Shown piece after piece: positions 1,200 through 15,597 of a stretch of DNA of 37,676 bases (positions are counted from its first letter, which is position 1; each line of letters begins with the position of its first letter). The notes under the pieces are model-generated. The model saw only the letters and a list, made by a program, of their open reading frames with translations, was not told the origin of the DNA and ran no database searches. The position numbers and the translations under genes are program-made. The DNA is from an uncultured Ferrovum sp. (lineage in GTDB: Bacteria; Pseudomonadota; Gammaproteobacteria; Burkholderiales; Ferrovaceae). The stretch covers positions 1-37,676 of the forward strand of contig CAIPBT010000056.1 of the NCBI GenBank assembly GCA_903863375.1, given 5' to 3'.

Positions 1200-3740
1200 T
1201 CAGGCGTCGTCGCGAACAGCCAGCAGGGCTTCCGGACCGGTCCCCTCGCGGGCACTCAGCACGGCAGCGAGCGACGCGGCGACCTGCATCAGCAGGCCCA
1301 AGGCCGCCAGCGAGGTCCATGGCAGGTGGGTTTCCATGCTCCAGTGAAAGGATTGCCGGTTGATCACATGGATCAGGATCAGACCGATGCCGATGCCGCT
1401 CGCCACGCCGATGCCGATCCCGATCGCGCTCACCAGCGCGCCCTCCCACAACACCAGGTAACGGATCTGTTGACGGGTCGCCCCCAGATGCACCAGCACG
1501 CCGAATTCCCGTCGGCGCGCCAGGATCTGCGCACCAAATCCGGCACTGATGCCCAGCAGGCCGATCAGCAGGGCCACCCCTTCCAGGGCGTAGGTCACCG
1601 TGAAGCTGCGGTCAAACACCTGCAGGCTGACGGTCTTGATCCGCGTCGGTTCGGCCACCTCAAAGCGGTCTTCGCCCAGGGTGCGCTGCACCGCGGCTGC
1701 CACGGCGGCAGCGTCGACGCCAGGGGCCAGATACACCGATGCATCGTCCGCGAGCGGATCGGCCGTGATCCGCTGATAGTCGGCACGGTCGATCACCACC
1801 GCCCCGAACTGGCGGGCGTAATCGCGCCAGACGCCGGCCACCTGCAAGTCCAGCCAATGTCCGTCCAGGGGCAGGCGCAGTGCGCTGCCCGGATGCAGGC
1901 CGTACAGGTCGACCATCGCCTCCGAGATCCAGGCGCAGGGTTTCGCGCAGGTCGGCGCGCTGCCCTGCCCGGCGGGATTGGCGCCCTCAACGACCGCGAT
2001 GGCGTGATGCTGCCAGGCGATCGCGAGATTGCGGCTGATCAGGCTCACGGCCGGCAGGTCGGCGCGCAGCAGCACCGGGCGGCTGCGCAACGTATCCACC
2101 GCTGCCACACCGGGAATCGCGGCGAGGCGGTCGCTGGCCGCTGGGGTCAGTTGCCCGGCAAGTCCGCCGCTGCCGCGCAGATACAGGTCGGCCGGCAAGA
2201 CCTGGTCGAGCCATTGCGCCAGCGACAGCCGGAACGAGCCAATCATCACGAGCATGGCGGCAACCAGGCTGACGGCGACGACGATGGTGGCGAGGCTCAG
2301 CGCCGCGTCCCGGCTGCGCGCCCGCAGGCCAGCCAGCGCCAGACCCGGCAGGACGCCGGCCGGCGTCGGCAGCCGCCGCAGGATGCTGCCGGTCAGCTGC
2401 GGCAGCAGGGTGAGCAGGCCGACCAGCAGCAGGGCGATGGCGAGGTAGCCCGGCAGCGGCAGCCCCAGCACTGGAGGCGCCTGACAGAGCAGGGCACCGG
2501 CCAGCAGCATGACACCACCCAGCCACAGGCCGACCGAGCGGCCCTGACGTTCGGTGCGGCCACCATGCAGGGCCAGCGCCGGATCGGTCTGCGCCGCCTG
2601 CCACGCTGGCAACAGGCAGCCGGCCAGGGCGCAACCGGTGCCGAGCAGCAGGAAGGCGAGCAGCACCAGGGGATCGAGCTGGAAGTGGGCGCGGCTGCCG
2701 CTGAAGTAGCCGGCACCCAGATCGCCGCCAAAGCGGGCCAGCGCCCAGGCCGCCACGGCTGTCCCAAGGGCGATGCCCAGGATCGAACCGGCCAGACCCA
2801 CCTGGCCGCCCTCCAGCGCGATGGCCAGCAGCACCTGCCGTCGCTCCACGCCCAGGGCACGCATCAGGCCGATCCGGCCATGACGGCGGGCAACGGCCAG
2901 GGTCTGTGTGGTGAACACCAGAAAACCGCCGGTGAACAGGGCAATCAGCGCGAGAACGGTGAGATTGGCGCGATAGGCACGCGAGAGTGTGGCGGTACGG
3001 GTGCCCGTGGCACCCGGCGGTGTGACCTGGACCCCGGCCGGCAGGGCAGTGCGCAGGGCCGCCTGCACTGCCCCCGGGGTGACCCCGGCGCGCAGGCGCA
3101 CATCGATGCGCTGCAGGCGACCGGTCATGCCAGCCATCTCCTGGGCATTGCCGATATCGAGCAACAGGAAGCTGCGGCCACTGCCGTCATCAGGTAGCAG
3201 ACCGGCGATCGTCACGATCTGGGTCTGGTCGGCCGTCTGCAGGGTCAGCCGATCGCCAGTGGTACAGGCGAGGGCGGCGGCCGCCGCCTGGCTGATGGCC
3301 GCCTGACCTGGATTGAGGAGAGCCCGGGCGAGCGCCGCCGGTGGTTGTGCCGTCGGGTCGATCCGGCCGGCCTGCAGCACATCCAGTCCGAGCAGCCGGG
3401 TGCCCTGGGCTTTGCCCGGATGGCAGCGCATCAGCACCGTGACATCGACCACCGGATTGGCAACCTCGACGCTCGGCAGGGCTGCCACCAGGGGATAGAC
3501 TGCATCGGTGAACCCATCCCGACCGGCGCTGACGGAGAGATCGGCGGCGCCGCCGAACTGGTTGGCAGCAGCGGCGAATTCGTCGACCGCCGCGCCGTTG
3601 ATCAGGTTCACCGCCACGCCCAGCGCGGTGCCCAGCGCGATGGCAAGCACCGCCATCAGCTGGCGTCCCCACTGACCCTGGCCGCCGGCCAGGGCAACAC
3701 GCAGGGGACGCAGATGGGCCAGACCCTCTCGGGTCGTCAT
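1200..3740 (-). CDS. FtsX-type ABC transporter permease (AttH-associated)
   Basis: An 846-residue inner-membrane permease with two FtsX units. A first helix (residues about 28-50, LMAVLAIALGTALGVAV) is followed by a periplasmic MacB-like core. A three-helix FtsX block then begins near NLTVLALIALFTGGFLVF and contains the cytoplasmic coupling text IGLMRALGVERRQVLLA. A middle hydrophobic section and a second periplasmic domain follow, and a second FtsX block at the C-terminus has EFGVLVHLGATRQQIRYL. The ATG at 3740 overlaps the ATPase stop as ATGA and is preceded by GGGGAAGG. The ATP-binding subunit is immediately upstream and the AttH-like protein downstream. By family it should be a mechanotransducing lipid or lipoprotein transporter rather than an importer, but the cargo cannot be read from sequence. 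Confidence 0.88.
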   Translation of the reverse strand: MTTREGLAHLRPLRVALAGGQGQWGRQLMAVLAIALGTALGVAVNLINGAAVDEFAAAANQFGGAADLSVSAGRDGFTDAVYPLVAALPSVEVANPVVDVTVLMRCHPGKAQGTRLLGLDVLQAGRIDPTAQPPAALARALLNPGQAAISQAAAAALACTTGDRLTLQTADQTQIVTIAGLLPDDGSGRSFLLLDIGNAQEMAGMTGRLQRIDVRLRAGVTPGAVQAALRTALPAGVQVTPPGATGTRTATLSRAYRANLTVLALIALFTGGFLVFTTQTLAVARRHGRIGLMRALGVERRQVLLAIALEGGQVGLAGSILGIALGTAVAAWALARFGGDLGAGYFSGSRAHFQLDPLVLLAFLLLGTGCALAGCLLPAWQAAQTDPALALHGGRTERQGRSVGLWLGGVMLLAGALLCQAPPVLGLPLPGYLAIALLLVGLLTLLPQLTGSILRRLPTPAGVLPGLALAGLRARSRDAALSLATIVVAVSLVAAMLVMIGSFRLSLAQWLDQVLPADLYLRGSGGLAGQLTPAASDRLAAIPGVAAVDTLRSRPVLLRADLPAVSLISRNLAIAWQHHAIAVVEGANPAGQGSAPTCAKPCAWISEAMVDLYGLHPGSALRLPLDGHWLDLQVAGVWRDYARQFGAVVIDRADYQRITADPLADDASVYLAPGVDAAAVAAAVQRTLGEDRFEVAEPTRIKTVSLQVFDRSFTVTYALEGVALLIGLLGISAGFGAQILARRREFGVLVHLGATRQQIRYLVLWEGALVSAIGIGIGVASGIGIGLILIHVINRQSFHWSMETHLPWTSLAALGLLMQVAASLAAVLSAREGTGPEALLAVRDDA

Positions 3741-4450
3741 CCGCCTTCCCCGTCCCAGGGCCACAGACGGCCATCCCGCAACATCAGGATCCGGTCCGCC
3801 GTGCGGGCGGCTTCGAGGGAATGGGTCACCAGCAGGCCGCTGCCACCTGCCTCGCCCAGCTGTTCGCGCAGCAAGGCCAGCACGCGCAGGCCGATGCCAT
3901 GGTCAAGGTTGCCGGTTGGTTCATCAGCCAGCACCAGGGCCGGGCGATGCGCCAGCGCGCGCGCCACGGCGACGCGCTGCACCTCGCCACCGGAGAGCTC
4001 GCCGGGCAGCGCATCGCGGCGTCCGCCCAGGCCGACCTGTTCGAGCAGCTGTGCGGCGCGTTGCAGGGCCTGCGGTCGGGGCACACCATCGAGTTGCAGC
4101 GGCAGCGCGATATTGTGCGCCGCGCTCAGATGGGGCAACAGGTGGAAGGCCTGAAAGACAAAGCCGATACGACGACGACGCAGGCGGGTGAGGGCAGCAT
4201 CCGGCAGGGTGGCCAGGTCGGTACCCTCCAGGCGCACCACGCCGGCATCCGGTCGTAACAGTCCTCCCAGCACATTGAGCAGGGTCGATTTGCCACTGCC
4301 CGACGGACCCATGATTGCCACGTACTCGCCGGCGGCCAGGCTCAGGTCAAGGTCGGCCAGTACCGCCCGGCCCTGCGGGCCCTCGAAGCGTCGGCACAGT
4401 CCGTCGACCTGGAGCAAGGGGCCGGTCGGCGGCCGTGGGGAGGAACTCAT
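3737..4450 (-). CDS. ABC transporter ATP-binding protein, LolD/MacB type
   Basis: A 237-residue ATPase that energises the FtsX-type permease encoded next to it. All nucleotide-binding elements are present: Walker A GPSGSGKST (48-56), Q-loop Gln100 in FVFQAFHLLPHLS, signature LSGGE (152-156), Walker B ALVLADEPTG (171-180) and the switch His210 in LLVTH. The FVFQ-x-F-x-LLP text is typical of the LolD/MacB group that pairs with FtsX permeases. The stop overlaps the permease start by 4 nt (ATGA), so translation is probably coupled. No strong Shine-Dalgarno sequence precedes the ATG. MurD2 ends 32 nt upstream on the same strand, so cotranscription with the murL-murD2 pair is likely. Confidence 0.92.
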   Translation of the reverse strand: MSSSPRPPTGPLLQVDGLCRRFEGPQGRAVLADLDLSLAAGEYVAIMGPSGSGKSTLLNVLGGLLRPDAGVVRLEGTDLATLPDAALTRLRRRRIGFVFQAFHLLPHLSAAHNIALPLQLDGVPRPQALQRAAQLLEQVGLGGRRDALPGELSGGEVQRVAVARALAHRPALVLADEPTGNLDHGIGLRVLALLREQLGEAGGSGLLVTHSLEAARTADRILMLRDGRLWPWDGEGG

Positions 4451-4482: not shown

Positions 4483-5949
4483 TCAGGCCGATGGATTGGG
4501 TGGCAGCTCGGTCAGCCAGCGCCGGAACTCGGCACCCCGCGCCTCAAAGCCCGACCACAGGTGGTAGGACGGCGCTGCCGGAGAAAACAGGCACAGGCCC
4601 CCGGGTGGGGTTAGCCGGTATGAGAGCTGCACGGCCTCCTGCAGGTTCCCGGCGGCATGGAACTGGGGGGTGGCCGTGGCCTCTGCTGCCGGCTGGCCTG
4701 CGAGCGCCTGACCAGCCACTCCTGAACCAGCGACTCCAGGATTCACCACTCTTGGATCAGCCAAGGCCTGCGCCGCCAGGACCCGCGCCCCGCTGTCCGG
4801 CAGCGTCACCACATGCCGTACCCGCCACCGGCGGATAGCTGCCAACAGGGGCTGATAGTCGTAGCCGCGATCCTGTCCACCGACCACCAAGGTATCGACC
4901 TGGCCCTGGCAGGCCTCCAGGGCAGCGCAGGCAGCCTCCGGCGCGGTCGAGATGCTGTCGTTGATCCAGCGCCGACCACCGTGCATGCCCTCATCCTGCA
5001 GCCGGTAGGGCAGGCCGGCGAAGCCTTGCAGCATCGCGTGCAGGCCGGCCACGTCGGCACCGGCATGGCGGGCCGCCGCAAACGCCAGGCAGGCGTTTTC
5101 GCGGTTGTGCTGACCCGGCAGACGGATTGCGACCGAGTCGATGATCCGCTCACCATCCCGCCAGATGCCAGCGGCGTCGGCGAACAGCCCTTGTCCGGGG
5201 GCTGCCTGTACCCATTCCACCTGCAGGTCTGGCCGCGACAGCACGCCATCGAGCGCGAAGGCTTCCAGCACCGGGCGCGCCGAGGCATGGACCACGAGCC
5301 GGCCACCGGCGGGGACCGCCTGCAGCAGGCGCACCTTGGCGGCGTAATAGGCTTCCAGGCTGCCGTGCCAGTCCAGGTGTTCGGGAAACAGGGGGCCCAG
5401 CACCGCTTGGCTGGGGCCTTCGCCGGCCTGCAGGTCGTCGCACTGGTAACTCGAGAGTTCCAGCACCACCTGGGGCCGTTCGGCAAGCACTGTATCCAGC
5501 GCCGCCAGGGCAGGCGCGCCGATGTTGCCGAGCAGCCTTGCCGTCACGCCGCTGGCGGCAAGACAGCCCTGCAGCAGCGTGCTGGTGGTGCTCTTGCCCT
5601 TAGAGGCGGTGATTGCGGTGGTGGCAATGCCGGCATGCTGCAGCTCGGCCAGCATGATGCGGGTGCCGGTAGTCTGTTCGATGTTCTTGGCCTGCAAGGC
5701 CTGGCGCAGCGGATGGTGGGGGGCGAAACCCGGCGAGCGCACCGCCACCGGCCGATCGGCCCGCAGTGCGGCCAGTTCGGCGACCCCCAGGCTGCGCACG
5801 CCGGTCGGCAGGTCAGGTGGCAGCTGGTCGGCGAGCGCGAAACAGGGCGCCCGATGGCCGCGTGCGCGCAGCAGGCTGGCCGCCGCCAGCCCCTCCCGGC
5901 CCAGGCCGAGCAGGATCACCGGCCGGTCAAGCAGTGCCGAGATACGCAT
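4483..5949 (-). CDS. murD2: MurD2: UDP-MurNAc-L-alanine--L-glutamate ligase
   Basis: A 488-residue Mur ligase of the MurD fold. It has an N-terminal Rossmann-like domain (VILLGLGREGLAAASLL), an ATP loop TASKGKSTTSTLLQ, LGNIGAPAL, LELSSYQCDDL, the central-domain text FPEHLDWHGSLEAYYAAK, NRENACLAFAAARHAGAD, WINDSISTAPEA and the C-terminal FSPAAPSYHLWSGFE where MurD has LSPGCASxDxFxNFE. The neighbour is a MurL epimerase, so this is read as MurD2, which adds L-Glu rather than D-Glu to UDP-MurNAc-L-Ala in the cytoplasm. The ATG at 5949 overlaps the murL end by 23 nt and has GGAGAG 9 nt upstream; an in-frame start at 6018 would intrude 92 nt into murL. A short low-complexity linker rich in GVAG/ALAG (about 4680-4750) interrupts the C-terminal domain. 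An ordinary MurD remains possible without biochemical proof. Confidence 0.85.
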   Translation of the reverse strand: MRISALLDRPVILLGLGREGLAAASLLRARGHRAPCFALADQLPPDLPTGVRSLGVAELAALRADRPVAVRSPGFAPHHPLRQALQAKNIEQTTGTRIMLAELQHAGIATTAITASKGKSTTSTLLQGCLAASGVTARLLGNIGAPALAALDTVLAERPQVVLELSSYQCDDLQAGEGPSQAVLGPLFPEHLDWHGSLEAYYAAKVRLLQAVPAGGRLVVHASARPVLEAFALDGVLSRPDLQVEWVQAAPGQGLFADAAGIWRDGERIIDSVAIRLPGQHNRENACLAFAAARHAGADVAGLHAMLQGFAGLPYRLQDEGMHGGRRWINDSISTAPEAACAALEACQGQVDTLVVGGQDRGYDYQPLLAAIRRWRVRHVVTLPDSGARVLAAQALADPRVVNPGVAGSGVAGQALAGQPAAEATATPQFHAAGNLQEAVQLSYRLTPPGGLCLFSPAAPSYHLWSGFEARGAEFRRWLTELPPNPSA

Positions 5950-7351
5950 CGAGGCGGGCTCTCCAGGCAGGGGACAGATCGGGGCTGGGCTGACTGGCCC
6001 ATTCGGCGGCCCAGGCACGGTCGAAGCCGTTGCCGAGCAGCGTGGCAGGGGCCTGGGCGGCCAGCGCGGCCAGCTCGGCCGGCAGGCGTCCCTGGCGCTG
6101 CAGGGCCAGCAGCGACAGCCAGCATTCCTGCGCGGTGCCCACGCAGTCCCACGGCTTGACGTCGGCCAGTCCCAGCAGCGCCAGCAGGTGTGGCCGGTTC
6201 TCCGGGTTGGTCAGGATGCCCGTGTCGAAGATGGTTGCGGTGCGCGCTGCATCCAGGTGCGGTGCCAGGATCAGGGCAACGAAGACGCACTTCGCACAGA
6301 CACCGCACCACCGGGCAGGTCGCGCGCCCGGCGACTGGCGGAAATTGCGGTTGCACGAGGTGAAGTGCGCATGTTGGGCAGGACACTGGGCGAAGGCCGC
6401 CGCGATGCGGATCTCGGACAGCGGGCGCAGCACGCTGGCATAGCGCGGCCAGGGGCCGACAGCATAGTGGGACCAGTGCTGGAAGGCCTGCTCGAAACGG
6501 CTGGATTTGCTCCATTGGTGATTGATTGGGCGACCTTGCCAGACCACGTTGGCATCATTGGCACCCCGTTCGTTGCCCACCAGCACATCCGTAAAGCCGC
6601 CCGTCCGTGCCACCAGACAGGCCACGGCAGCGATGCAGGCGGAAATCGGCACATGACCGTTCCAGGCACCCTGCGCGTTCAGCGTCAGCAGGGCCGGATC
6701 GATCTGCCGGCCGATGCGGTGCAGGGTCATGCCCGCCGCCGCCGCCGAACGTGCCATCCAGGGACTGTCGCCGAGCGACAAGGCAGCGGCAGCAACCCCG
6801 CTGGTCTGCACCATGTCCGCCACCAGGCCGCTGTCTTTGCCGCCGCCAATCAGTACCAGGGCCCGTTCGGTGGGGGCTTCTGCCCGGTTTGCACTGGCGT
6901 CGTTGGCAGCAGGGTCCCTGGCGGCGGCGGGCCGCGCCTGGCGCAGGAAGCCGACATCCGCCGGCACCGGCAGGCCGTTGCGGAAATAGAATTCGCCGAG
7001 GCCGTCGCTGTAGAGCAGGTCCCAGAAGGCCAGTTCCTGGAGGGTGAGCCGGTCATAGCCCGGCGCTGACAGCACCACCTGGGGTGGCAGGGCGGCCTTG
7101 TAGTACGAAACACCAAAGGCGAGATGACAGGCGCGCACCAGGGCCTGGATCGCGGGATCCTGGCGGTTGGGTGGCGGCAGCCCGGCGGGCAGGGTCAGCC
7201 GTTCGCAGAATGACTGATCCGGATCCGGGCCACCGCGCAGGGCGTAGTGCAGTTGCAGGGTGTGACCCTGCAGGGCGCTGGAAAGAAAGTGAAACTCGGC
7301 GTGGCGGGGCCGGCGCTCAGGTGCCGCGGATGTACTGTTCCAGTTGTTCAA
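5927..7351 (-). CDS. murL: MurL: UDP-MurNAc-L-Ala-L-Glu epimerase
   Basis: A protein of about 474 residues resembling MurL, the ATP-dependent epimerase that converts the terminal L-Glu of UDP-MurNAc-L-Ala-L-Glu to D-Glu (AMP and PPi released, from work on Xanthomonas). Visible marks are FHFLSS near the N-terminus, YDRLTLQELAFWDLLYSDGL, the PP-loop-like VLIGGGKDSGL (about 166-176), VGNERGANDANVVWQG, INHQWSKSSRFE and a CGVCAKCVF cysteine motif. It sits directly before murD2 and overlaps it, as expected for the pathway. The only plausible start before the conserved FHFL block is a TTG at 7351, overlapping the CBS gene by 35 nt. GAGGAG lies about 13 nt upstream, longer than ideal, so the exact N-terminus is uncertain. 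Confidence 0.82.
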   Translation of the reverse strand: MNNWNSTSAAPERRPRHAEFHFLSSALQGHTLQLHYALRGGPDPDQSFCERLTLPAGLPPPNRQDPAIQALVRACHLAFGVSYYKAALPPQVVLSAPGYDRLTLQELAFWDLLYSDGLGEFYFRNGLPVPADVGFLRQARPAAARDPAANDASANRAEAPTERALVLIGGGKDSGLVADMVQTSGVAAAALSLGDSPWMARSAAAAGMTLHRIGRQIDPALLTLNAQGAWNGHVPISACIAAVACLVARTGGFTDVLVGNERGANDANVVWQGRPINHQWSKSSRFEQAFQHWSHYAVGPWPRYASVLRPLSEIRIAAAFAQCPAQHAHFTSCNRNFRQSPGARPARWCGVCAKCVFVALILAPHLDAARTATIFDTGILTNPENRPHLLALLGLADVKPWDCVGTAQECWLSLLALQRQGRLPAELAALAAQAPATLLGNGFDRAWAAEWASQPSPDLSPAWRARLDAYLGTA

Positions 7352-9426: not shown

Positions 9427-9728
9427 CAGCCTTTGGGCTCCTGCAGGATCATCGGTTTGCGGATGTGTGGCGGCGGGTGTCAGGCTGCTGGTGGTTCATG
9501 CCAGTGCGAGTGTCAGATGGCGGCCGCCCGCTGCCGTCGCAGCGTTCCGCAAAGCCCTTCAGTATAAGGCCAAGCCGACCCACGCGGCGGCCAGACCAAC
9601 GGCGGCGCCCGGCGGCAAATCCCCGGGCGCGAACCCATGCCGTGTTTCGGCGAACCGCGGCGCATTCAGGGAACCAAGCCAGCGCTGGTCCGGTCTGTCC
9701 TTCCGGAACACCCTTAGGGAGTCGGCCT
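9427..9728. other. Divergent intergenic region, ETF-QO / rpoE
   Basis: A 302-base spacer between the divergent ETF-QO and rpoE genes. It must hold promoters for both. The only candidate I can point to is an AlgU-like promoter next to rpoE, listed separately. I looked for a sigma-54 promoter or TGTC-N10-GACA dyads here, because GlrR controls rpoE in E. coli, and saw none. Confidence 0.6.
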
Positions 9729-9732
9729 ATGA
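9706..9732 (+). promoter_or_regulatory. Possible RpoE/AlgU-type autoregulatory promoter
   Basis: GAACAC, then 16 nt, then TATGA, compared with the GAACTT-N16/17-TCTGA pattern of AlgU/RpoE promoters: 4 of 6 and 4 of 5 bases match. This family normally autoregulates from such a site. If it is used, transcription would start near 9738, downstream of the ATG at 9729, and the protein would have to begin at 9759 or 9783. The match is imperfect, so confidence is low. Confidence 0.25.
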
Positions 9733-10442
9733 CCAGCTTATACTACGGATCCCTCGACATGCCCGGAGCTCCTCTGGTCGCGATGGGTCAGGAAGCGCGC
9801 AAGCAATTGAACGATCAGACAAGCCTTACCGTGGCGCTTCCGCCGACAGACCGGGAGCTGGACCAGGTGCTGGTCGAGCGGGCCCAGCGGGGTGACAAGC
9901 GTGCATTCGAGCTGTTGGTCATCAAATACCAGCGCAAGCTTGGGCGACTGCTCAGCCGGCTGATCCGCGATCCCGCCGAGGTCGAGGATGTCACCCAGGA
10001 AGCCTTCGTCAAGGCGTACCGGGCGCTGGGTTCCTTCCGCGGCGAAAGCGCGTTTTATACCTGGCTGTACCGGATCGGCATCAACACGGCAAAGAATTAC
10101 CTGGTGGCGCTGGGGCGCCGTGCCCCCACGTCCACGCCCTTTGACAGCGAAGAAGCGGAAACCTTCGACGATGGCGACCAGCTACGGGATATGAATACCC
10201 CGGAAGCCGAGCTGATGAGCAAGCAGATTGCCCGCACGGTGAACGAAAGTATGGAAAGCCTGCCGGAGGAATTGCGCACCGCCATCACCCTGCGCGAGAT
10301 CGACGGGCTCAGTTACGAGGAAATCGCCACCGTGATGGCCTGCCCGATCGGAACGGTGCGTTCGCGCATCTTCCGGGCCCGTGAGGCGATTGCCGAACGG
10401 TTGCGGCCGCAGCTTGGCACTTCGAAAGACAGGAGATGGTAA
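9729..10442 (+). CDS. rpoE: RNA polymerase sigma factor RpoE (AlgU)
   Basis: An ECF sigma factor for the envelope stress response. Region 2 is clear (DQVLVERAQRGDKRAFELLV, VEDVTQEAFVKAYRALGSF, SAFYTWLYRIGINTAKNYLV). Region 4 is also clear (LPEELRTAITLREIDGLSYE, IATVMACPIGTVRSRIFRAR). The family is normally about 190-200 residues, and only the N-terminus is in doubt. The ATG at 9729 (237 aa) has AGGGAG 7 nt upstream; ATGs at 9759 and 9783 give 227 and 219 aa and fit family length better but have poor ribosome binding sites. The gene is followed by its anti-sigma factor with a one-base TAATG overlap, so the complex is made in step. Activity is expected to be held in check by RseA and released by regulated proteolysis. 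Confidence 0.95.
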   Translation: MTSLYYGSLDMPGAPLVAMGQEARKQLNDQTSLTVALPPTDRELDQVLVERAQRGDKRAFELLVIKYQRKLGRLLSRLIRDPAEVEDVTQEAFVKAYRALGSFRGESAFYTWLYRIGINTAKNYLVALGRRAPTSTPFDSEEAETFDDGDQLRDMNTPEAELMSKQIARTVNESMESLPEELRTAITLREIDGLSYEEIATVMACPIGTVRSRIFRAREAIAERLRPQLGTSKDRRW

Positions 10443-11008
10443 TGAACCACGAACAACTCTCAGCCCTGCTGGATGGCGAACTGGACGAACTGGCCACGGC
10501 CCGCCTGCTGAAAACCCTGGAAGCCGAGGCCGCCGAAGACTGGAGCGCCGACTGGGAAACCTACAGCCTGATCGGCGACGCCTTGCGTGAGGGTGACCGG
10601 ATGGTCACCACGGGCAGTGCCGGTGCGCAGCGTGCGTTGGCGCAGATTGCCCAGGAGCCGGCACCAGAGCGTGGCTCACGCCTTTCCGTGTCGGCTGGCC
10701 TTGCGGCCATGCCTGCCCTGACCGGGCGCTGGATACCTTGGGCGATTGCGGCCTCGGCGGCACTGGTTGTTTTTCAGCTCAACCAGATTCCGCTGGTGGG
10801 GGATGCGGTGACCGCGTCGGCCGGCAGTATGCGACAGGCTGCCCATGCTATGTTGGCCAGCACCGGTTTGGGTGAGGCGGAGGTGCAGCTCGCAGACCCG
10901 GCCGAAATGGATCGGTTCATCGACCTGCACCGCGAGATCGCCACGACCGGCTTCCAGCGCACCAGTCTGGAGGCGGTCAGCAGCAGCGGAGGCGCGCGCG
11001 GACAATGA
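10442..11008 (+). CDS. rseA: Anti-sigma factor RseA (MucA)
   Basis: A 188-residue membrane-spanning anti-sigma factor that sequesters RpoE. The N-terminal cytoplasmic domain begins EQLSALLDGELDE and includes WSADWETYSLIGDALREGD, the pattern of the RseA/MucA sigma-binding domain. One transmembrane helix lies near residues 98-115 (WIPWAIAASAALVVFQL) and a periplasmic tail follows. I chose the ATG at 10442 over that at 10436 because AGGAG at 10431-10435 is 6 nt from the former and touches the latter. It overlaps the rpoE stop (TAATG) and its own stop overlaps rseB (ATGA). By family, stress-activated proteolysis would destroy it and free RpoE. Confidence 0.9.
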   Translation: MNHEQLSALLDGELDELATARLLKTLEAEAAEDWSADWETYSLIGDALREGDRMVTTGSAGAQRALAQIAQEPAPERGSRLSVSAGLAAMPALTGRWIPWAIAASAALVVFQLNQIPLVGDAVTASAGSMRQAAHAMLASTGLGEAEVQLADPAEMDRFIDLHREIATTGFQRTSLEAVSSSGGARGQ

Positions 11009-11979
11009 AGCGCCTGCAGTGGCTGTTGATGTTGGCCGGGTTGCTGGTGGCTGGATCGGCGTGTGCCGACGCCCCAGGACGTGGCAGCGATGCACTGGAC
11101 TGGCTGTTGCGGATGTCGCGCTCGTCCCAGGCGATGAATTATGGCGGCGTGTTCACGTTCACCCATGACGGCCGGTCGGAAACCTCCCGCATCCTGCATG
11201 TCAATGACGGCGGCAGTGAACGGGGCAAGGTCGAGGCGCTGGATGGGCCGCCGCGCGAGCTGATCCGGGAGAACAGTCAGATTGCGGTATATCAACCGGA
11301 CAATCGGGTGGTGAAGCTGGATCGCGTCGAGGGGCGGCATTTCTTCCCCTCCCTGCTGACCGGCAGTCCGACCCAGCTGCGCGATTGGTACAACGTTTCC
11401 CTGGCTGGCATTGACCGGGTGGCGGGTCGGGAATGCCAGCTGATCCGGCTGGAGCCGCGCGATGCCCTGCGCTTCGGCTACCGGCTTTGCGCAGACAACG
11501 AAACCGGACTGATGCTGCGGGCGGCGGTGGAAGACGGTGCCCGGGGCGTGTTGCAGCAGTTTGTGTTCACCGAGTTCGAGATGGTGCCGGCTCCCGCGCC
11601 GGAGCGCTTGCGCCCCTCCTGGAGCGGTGACGGCTGGCTTTGGGACCGCAGCGGACTGGTTCAGGATGTGGATGGTGGCTGGCAGATCGGCAGTCCTCCC
11701 GCCGGCTTCCGCAAGGTGCTGGACCTGCGCCGGCCGGTGGATGCCCGGGGCGGCATGATGATCCAGCAGGTTTACTCGGACGGTATTGCGGCGGTTTCGG
11801 TGTTCATCGAACCTGCCCGTAGCCCGGCCGGCGGTGCCCCCAGTGAGTCGCGCCGTGGTGCGCTCAGTCTGTATTCGTGGCGAATTGGTGAGCAGCAGGT
11901 GACGGCTATCGGAGAAGTTCCGCCGGCCGCTGTCGCACAAATGGTGCGGTCTGCCGTCTCCGTCAAGAACAAACCCTGA
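11005..11979 (+). CDS. rseB: Sigma-E regulatory protein RseB (MucB)
   Basis: A 324-residue periplasmic regulator. The signal peptide LQWLLMLAGLLVAGSACA ends before DAPGRG. The mature part has the MucB/RseB lipoprotein-like domain (MNYGGVFTFTHDGRSE, SRILHVNDGG, REVIREN-type text as RELIREN, VAGRECQLIRLEPRD, FGYRLCADNETGLMLRA) and a C-terminal domain (GGMMIQQVYSDGIAAVSVFI). The family binds the RseA periplasmic tail, shields it from the site-1 protease and senses mislocalised envelope lipids. The ATG at 11005 overlaps the rseA stop. No rseC/mucC follows; mucD comes next after 14 nt, so the operon is shorter than in Pseudomonas. Confidence 0.9.
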   Translation: MKRLQWLLMLAGLLVAGSACADAPGRGSDALDWLLRMSRSSQAMNYGGVFTFTHDGRSETSRILHVNDGGSERGKVEALDGPPRELIRENSQIAVYQPDNRVVKLDRVEGRHFFPSLLTGSPTQLRDWYNVSLAGIDRVAGRECQLIRLEPRDALRFGYRLCADNETGLMLRAAVEDGARGVLQQFVFTEFEMVPAPAPERLRPSWSGDGWLWDRSGLVQDVDGGWQIGSPPAGFRKVLDLRRPVDARGGMMIQQVYSDGIAAVSVFIEPARSPAGGAPSESRRGALSLYSWRIGEQQVTAIGEVPPAAVAQMVRSAVSVKNKP

Positions 11980-11993
11980 ACGGGAGGTTTACT

Positions 11994-13433
11994 ATGCGTC
12001 GTCTCTGGTTGTGTCTGGTTTTCATGCTGCTGCCCTGGTTTGCCCGCGCCGAGGGGTTGCCGGATTTCACCGATCTGGTCGAAAAGCAGTCCGCATCGGT
12101 TGTCAACATCAGCACCACCCAAGTCCCCAAGGCAGGTGTCGATGGTGGCGATGATGCCATGCAGGAGTTCTTTCGCCGTTACGGCATTCCGGTGCCGCCG
12201 GGCGGGTCTCCACATGGCCCCGGTGGACCGGGCAATGGGGGCAATGGTGGAGGGCCGCGCGACGGGGGTGGTGAGCAGCATTCGCTCGGCTCTGGTTTTG
12301 TCATCAGTGCCGACGGTTATATCCTGACCAACGCGCACGTGGTGCAGGGCGCTGACGAGATCGTGGTCGCGTTGACCGACAAGCGGGAGTTCAAGGCCAA
12401 GGTGATTGGCAGTGATCGCAAGACCGATGTGGCGCTGATCAAGGTCGAGGCTACCGGTCTGGTGCCGGTCAAGACCGGTGACATCGACAAGCTGAAGGTT
12501 GGGGAGTGGGTGGTGGCGATCGGGTCGCCCTTCGGTTTTGAGAGCACCGTGACCAAGGGCATCGTCAGTGCCAAAGGCCGTTCGTTGCCACAGGAAACCC
12601 TGGTGCCTTTCATTCAGACAGACGTGCCGATCAACCCAGGCAACTCGGGCGGTCCCCTGTTCAACCTGAAGGGGGAAGTGGTCGGCATCAATTCGCAGAT
12701 CTACAGTCGCACGGGCGGCTTCATGGGCCTGTCGTTTGCGATCCCGATCGACGTCGCCCTGGATGTGTCGAAGCAGTTGCGCGACAGTGGCAAGGTGACG
12801 CGCGGCTGGCTGGGCGTGGTGATCCAGGATGTGACGACCGATATCGCCGAATCGTTTGGCCTTGCGAAGGCGCAGGGTGCCCTGGTGGCGAGCCTGGAGA
12901 AAGGTGGGCCGGCTGACACCAGCGGCCTGCAGGTCAGCGACGTGATCACCCGGTTCGACGGCAAGCCGATCAAGTCGCGGGAAGACCTGCCGCGCGCGGT
13001 CGGAGCGACGCGCCCGGGCAGCAGTGTGAAAGTCAGTGTGTGGCGTAAGGGTCAGAATCAGGACCTGACTGTGGCGGTGGGCGAAATGCCGGGAGAAGAA
13101 GGCGGCGGTCTGCGTCCTGCCTCGCGCCGTACCGGCGGAGAAAATCCGGCTTCCAAGATCGGCCTGTCACTGGGCACCCTGAAGGACGAGCAGCGCAAGG
13201 AACTCGATCTGAAGGGCGGGGTTCTGGTCCAGGATGTGAGCGGCGCTGCCGCCAAGGCCGGTCTGCAGCCCGGCGACGTGATCATCTCGGTCAACACGGC
13301 TGATGTTTCGAGCGTGGAAGAATTCAACAAGGCGCTGACCGCAACCGCAGACCGCAAGGCCGTGGCCCTGCTGGTGCGGCGCGGTGACTCATCGCGCTAC
13401 ATCACCTTGAAGAAGGACGGCGGTGCCGGCTGA
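11994..13433 (+). CDS. mucD: DegP-family periplasmic serine protease MucD
   Basis: A 479-residue HtrA/DegP protease-chaperone for damaged envelope proteins. A signal peptide (LWLCLVFMLLPWFARA) is followed by a Gly/Pro-rich LA-loop-like insert (about 68-93). The catalytic triad is visible as His115 (TNAHVV), Asp145 (KTDVALIKV) and Ser218 (NPGNSGGPL). Two PDZ domains follow, one near 260-350 (TRGWLGVVIQDVT, LQVSDVITRFDGKPI) and one near 380-475 (GVLVQDVSGAAAKAGLQPGD). The ATG at 11994 has GGGAGG 7 nt upstream. As last protein of the rpoE operon it fits the usual feedback arrangement: the sigma factor makes the protease that clears the stress signal. Confidence 0.95.
   Translation: MRRLWLCLVFMLLPWFARAEGLPDFTDLVEKQSASVVNISTTQVPKAGVDGGDDAMQEFFRRYGIPVPPGGSPHGPGGPGNGGNGGGPRDGGGEQHSLGSGFVISADGYILTNAHVVQGADEIVVALTDKREFKAKVIGSDRKTDVALIKVEATGLVPVKTGDIDKLKVGEWVVAIGSPFGFESTVTKGIVSAKGRSLPQETLVPFIQTDVPINPGNSGGPLFNLKGEVVGINSQIYSRTGGFMGLSFAIPIDVALDVSKQLRDSGKVTRGWLGVVIQDVTTDIAESFGLAKAQGALVASLEKGGPADTSGLQVSDVITRFDGKPIKSREDLPRAVGATRPGSSVKVSVWRKGQNQDLTVAVGEMPGEEGGGLRPASRRTGGENPASKIGLSLGTLKDEQRKELDLKGGVLVQDVSGAAAKAGLQPGDVIISVNTADVSSVEEFNKALTATADRKAVALLVRRGDSSRYITLKKDGGAG

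Positions 13434-13803: not shown

Positions 13804-15596
<1,793 letters not shown>

Positions 15597-15597
<1 letters not shown>

Follow-up and report, generated by a model that had tools for sequence, protein, structure and literature searches.

A MurL-MurD2 pair as the probable sole route to peptidoglycan D-glutamate in a Ferrovum-group betaproteobacterium, and a predicted QueC/QatC-like build of MurL

The MurD2-MurL pathway has been known since 2017. In the accounts of it given in PMC8788868 and PMC5808125, the Xanthomonas orthologues were shown to catalyse both reactions, with a need for ATP and with AMP as a product, and XOO_1319 (MurL) is described as an ATP-dependent enzyme that produces AMP. 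X. oryzae MurD2 carries E197 and R358 at the positions that D182 and K348 take in E. coli MurD; according to PMC8788868, the double substitution E197D/R358K turns X. oryzae MurD2 to D-Glu, and K319T makes E. coli MurD accept L-Glu. Reviews from 2018 and 2021 (PMC5808125, PMC8788868) state that MurL lacks known domains and propose an acyl-adenylate in its reaction; the later one records the pathway from gammaproteobacteria, alphaproteobacteria and a few rare actinobacteria only (PMC8788868). To this our analysis adds a new lineage outside those groups, a clean replacement within one family, the missing murD of the dcw cluster and a predicted fold for MurL.

The pair described here lies in a 37,676-nucleotide stretch of DNA (the window) from an uncultured Ferrovum sp., whose genus is betaproteobacterial and belongs to the Ferrovum group. 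On the minus strand, murL occupies 5927-7351 (474 aa, TTG start, GAGGAG just before the start) and murD2 occupies 4483-5949 (488 aa, ATG start, beginning MRIS). For murD2 we preferred the ATG at 5949 over a 511-aa GTG open reading frame (4483-6018), because this start is common to relatives and the GTG frame begins upstream of it. The 3′ end of murL and the 5′ end of murD2 overlap by 23 nt (5927-5949, minus strand). Also on the minus strand, a gene for a CBS-pair protein (PF00571; 7317-7937) lies upstream of murL, and genes for an ABC transporter ATPase of the LolD/MacB type (PF00005; 3737-4450), an FtsX/MacB-type permease (1200-3764) and a CrtC/AttH-type lipocalin (5-1255) lie downstream of murD2. 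The overlap and the flanks are thus as a sequence-only reading of this DNA had given them, and the span 4483-7351 that it marked takes in both genes. Elsewhere in the window, a sigma-E type operon on the plus strand (9465-13433) encodes a sigma factor, a small anti-sigma-like protein, RseB and a DegP/MucD-type protease, and is followed by LepA (13804-15597).

The window MurL matched NCBIfam NF041275 over residues 17-419 with 302 bits (E 3.8e-90), a score below the cut-off of 700 set for this model, a value tuned to Xanthomonadales. MurLs from other proteobacterial classes likewise fall short of this value; in our phylum sample, it was reached only by members of two families, both in the class to which the window organism belongs. 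MurD2 scored 242 bits against TIGR01087 (murD), exceeding the cut-off of 212. Both matches are far stronger than chance would give. Identity between the window MurL and those of the four other genus members is 62-67%. The protein contains the PP-loop GGGKDS at residues 169-174 (6830-6847, minus strand) and the motif CGVCAKC at residues 349-355, both of which had been picked out in the sequence-only reading. The four-cysteine site C333...C349-C352-C355 (6287-6355, minus strand) aligns with the cysteines of QueC. GGGKDS and the four cysteines are invariant in an alignment of 40 diverse MurLs. Pfam and PADLOC did not recognise MurL.

The specificity residues of MurD2 were then compared with those of E. 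coli MurD. E190 and R361 of the window MurD2 occupy the positions of D182 and K348, I333 replaces K319, and P460 and Y462 replace A414 and L416. In the first alignment, each of the other 23 MurD2s linked to murL had E and R; D and K were present in E. coli MurD and in all 25 dcw-encoded MurDs of relatives. In a wider set, 71 of 78 MurD2s had E at the first specificity position, and in the tree a branch with support 100 divided the murL-linked MurD2s from the canonical MurDs. Judged by these residues, the window MurD2 is of the L-Glu-selecting type. The assignment to a MurD2-MurL pair as in Xanthomonas, proposed from the letters, thus agrees with both profile matches and with the MurD2-type residues.

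If the pair supplies the D-Glu of the cell wall, MurI need not be present, and the earlier proposal had treated it as dispensable. The window genome is a 226-contig assembly with 97% completeness. No MurI was found in it with the profiles PF01177 and TIGR00067, and none in the five genus genomes, two of which are 99% complete. A PF01063 search of the window genome revealed no D-amino-acid transaminase (Dat): the two PF01063 genes were rejected as Dat, being IlvE and a PabB-PabC fusion. Nor was a second MurD present, murD2 alone being above the TIGR01087 cut-off; the other matches to this model were MurE, MurF and MurC in the dcw cluster, and the remainder fell under the cut-off. The dcw order is murF-mraY-ftsW-murG, with murD cleanly gone and the cluster otherwise intact; mraY runs straight into ftsW with an overlap, at the place where murD separates the two genes in E. 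coli. The mraY-ftsW junction is without murD in all five genus genomes. We examined 25 sister and outgroup genomes, 15 belonging to the same family, and each has murD at the dcw site. This genome, then, contains neither murI nor a dcw murD, nor Dat, nor any MurD other than MurD2. Free D-Glu might conceivably come from a side activity of the DapF type (PMC5885031), but no canonical MurD would be there to use it. It is very likely that the MurL-MurD2 pair is the sole source of peptidoglycan D-Glu in this Ferrovum-group host, its activity being taken by analogy from the orthologues.

This arrangement shares with X. oryzae MurD2-MurL (XOO_1320/XOO_1319, PMC8788868) the two families, the adjacency of the pair, the specificity residues and the lack of murI, and with Xanthomonas the loss of murD from dcw, which we checked in X. 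arboricola and found as the same gap. It differs in its Ferrovum-group betaproteobacterial host, in its CBS and ABC neighbours, in having its closest kin in a proteobacterium, Magnetococcales and Myxococcota, and in a MurL identity to Xanthomonadales of ~36-40%. Unlike the canonical MurI and MurD route, it has no MurI, its ligase residues differ, and inversion would come after ligation.

Two other accounts of the pair have to be considered. MurI and the dcw murD might have been lost in binning from what is a fragmented assembly, and the pair might be accessory, serving for example a modified peptidoglycan or a second pathway; a second MurD does occur alongside MurL-MurD2 in some Patescibacteria and in one proteobacterium. 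However, mraY adjoins ftsW in all five genus genomes, which indicates that the dcw murD was excised rather than left unsequenced, and MurI is missing from all five, including the two that are 99% complete. An assembly gap is an unlikely cause of the absences because four more genomes agree with the window genome and the mraY-ftsW junction is intact; this account is largely refuted, and we give it very little credence. Even less probable is that MurL acts as a free glutamate racemase whose D-Glu a relaxed MurD would use. According to PMC8788868, the pair rescues a D-Glu auxotroph, which a racemase would also do, but recombinant XOO_1319 showed no Glu racemase activity; the window MurD2 has L-Glu residues.

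Weak PF01177 matches of ~265 aa in relatives were rejected as MurI, as they resemble PanB by eye; those of L169 and L170, also rejected, match no NCBIfam model. L229 encodes a 220-aa protein of the racemase superfamily, and its genome has no TIGR00067 match. The sister genera g2-g5 (G005, G006, G007, G008 and congeners) have the canonical murD and neither MurI (TIGR00067) nor MurL; Dat or DapF-type racemisation are candidate sources of their D-Glu.

All five genus members have MurL and keep the murL-murD2 pair; MurL was found in none of 27 further genomes from the family. The MurL tree and the MurD2 tree agree in placing the genus with a proteobacterium, Magnetococcales and a Myxococcota bin, at a distance from Xanthomonadales; the closest kin in Magnetococcales and Myxococcota suggest that the pair was acquired horizontally. 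Since the rest of the family is without the pair, the simplest reading is that it was transferred into the ancestor of the genus and that murD was then lost. The order ETF-QO, CBS, murL, murD2, ABC is kept in genus members (G001, G002, G003 and L075), and the event is therefore not recent. The pair does not stand out as foreign by its base composition: the G+C of murL (68%) and murD2 (70%) is similar to that of the downstream genes. The nearest relative outside the genus (G486, the genome of L076) keeps a dcw murD (L207:4584-5855), in which a residue other than K stands at the K348 position, together with murL-murD2, and has no MurI; it is possibly a half-way stage of murD replacement. In another family of the order, L023 (G033:C35:34577-34918) holds a MurL-like stretch of ~115 codons with three stops, a possible relic or a chance likeness.

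We also modelled MurL, for which a sequence search found no structure in the PDB. AlphaFold2 gave models of the window MurL (pLDDT 92.4, pTM 0.93) and of X. arboricola MurL (pLDDT 94.9, pTM 0.94), and the best PDB match of both was QatC, with Z 18.0 over 322 residues and 18.9 over 320, respectively. QueC (Z 14.3 and 14.4) and Cap9 (Z 13.6 and 14.5) came next, and all remaining PP-loop families stayed at Z 10.9 or below. In QatC, a QueC core is extended by a four-stranded sheet at the N terminus and by helices at the C terminus, and zinc is bound through C334, C354, C357 and C360 (PMC13279940); the MurL models are predicted to have the same three-part order. When hhalign compared the MurL alignment with nine QueC sequences, GGGKDS came to lie opposite SGGQDS and the four cysteines opposite the four of E. 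coli QueC, although the statistics of this match (P 0.003, probability 10%) are weak on their own. As this profile-profile support alone is weak, the fold assignment rests on the predicted structures, in which both models show the QueC-type core fold with Z 14-19 to QueC, Cap9 and QatC. Set against the SGGxDS and C(x)nCxxCxxC zinc motifs, MurL has GGGKDS, with G in first place rather than S, and C-x15-C-x2-C-x2-C, a predicted zinc site. The earlier description as PP-loop-like was correct and can be sharpened to a PP-loop ATPase of the QueC/QatC type with a four-cysteine, probably zinc, site.

MurL thus appears, from its models, to be built like QueC, yet it is not a QueC. With QueC/Cap9 and with QatC (of the qatABCD defence system) it shares the PP-loop ATPase core and a four-cysteine site after the core, and with QatC only the N-terminal beta-sheet and C-terminal helical extensions. 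The Pfam QueC model matched none of 16 MurLs, and the QueC catalytic motifs YxQxHxxE, VPxRN and YPDC (PMC13329287) were not seen in the MurL alignment; MurL has invariant residues of its own, for example K85, R215, N231-G-H233, N277-H278-Q279, S281-K282 and E287, and no 7-deazaguanine chemistry is expected of it. The likeness might instead reflect a general Rossmann/HUP fold only, with tRNA thiolases such as TtuA as the true nearest kin, since the sequence profile picks up TtuA (E 5e-5) and not QueC. That match, however, spans only ~40-50 residues around the PP-loop. QatC gives Z 18-19 over ~320 residues, including the N-terminal extension, as compared with Z 9 for TtuA, and the four-cysteine site fits QueC/QatC. 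We therefore consider thiolase kinship unlikely, though less so than either account of the pair rejected above, and retain kinship with QueC and QatC.

This predicted kinship bears on the chemistry. QueC uses ATP on a carboxylate (PMC13329287), and since the modelled fold of MurL is of the QueC/QatC type, adenylation presents itself as the mechanism of MurL. ATP-dependent carboxylate chemistry, shown for QueC, would then be common to both. In what is the best-supported mechanism, MurL would invert the newly added residue in place and in one direction, using ATP and forming AMP: it would adenylate the alpha-carboxylate of the L-Glu residue, after which deprotonation and reprotonation would be followed by hydrolysis. 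The acyl-adenylate step and a QueC-like active site are what we infer for MurL, and a QueC-like build would explain its use of ATP.

To place the window pair in its wider family, we scanned GTDB contigs and obtained at least 586 MurL-encoding stretches, of which 80 were kept. Among these 80 of at least 586 were many Patescibacteria and several Actinomycetota. Both genes were found at 77 of the kept loci, and at 75 of these murD2 comes directly after murL or is joined to it in a fusion. Eight Patescibacteria loci encode a single fused protein of 814-870 aa, with MurL N-terminal and MurD2 C-terminal (L083:447-2966, L085:5995-8436, L087:5989-8508, L096:5935-8481, L113:2626-5094, L121:5944-8532, L142:1836-4445 and L150:5998-8508). 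No MurI above the family cut-off was found in 30 genomes with MurL-MurD2. MurL was rare on plasmids and among phage records.

Several loci depart from the common pattern. In Saccharibacteria, L102:4399-7028 has the reversed order, murD2 before murL, with D, not E, at the first specificity position. Two Moranbacteria (G491, G494) encode a stand-alone second MurD with D and K beside the fusion (L211:2885-4243, L210:5056-6414); MurI was not found in these genomes despite the second MurD. The dcw murD appears decayed in Rhodobacteraceae NBU2976 (L208:7389-8405, shortened to 339 aa), and seems so in Microbacterium nanhaiense (L209, ~5325-6401), where it is without the carbamylated lysine and the C-terminal domain; both organisms have murL-murD2. 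On Pseudonocardia plasmids, MurL relatives (H32-H34) are annotated as hypothetical proteins.

Taken together, it is likely that MurL represents a branch of the QueC superfamily that has gone unrecognised, with the three-part build of QatC and QueC-like carboxylate adenylation, and that the cassette is far wider than reviews report, with the dcw murD displaced more than once. The wider distribution refers to Ferrovum-group betaproteobacteria, Magnetococcales, Myxococcota and Patescibacteria, in the last often as one fused protein. In a literature search that was thin on subscription journals, we found no paper placing MurL in the QueC family and no report of MurL in Ferrovum or Patescibacteria; MurL-MurD2 fusion proteins were not mentioned in the literature searched.

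Almost all bacterial cell walls contain D-Glu, and MurI is commonly regarded as essential and as a drug target. The swap within one family, in which sister genera keep the dcw murD and the Ferrovum-group genus does not, amounts to a natural experiment in which an essential pathway is replaced. The predicted QueC-type fold would make the MurL reaction, which was reported without a mechanism, testable residue by residue, and would connect an enzyme of the cell wall with a family whose known roles lie in tRNA modification and phage defence.
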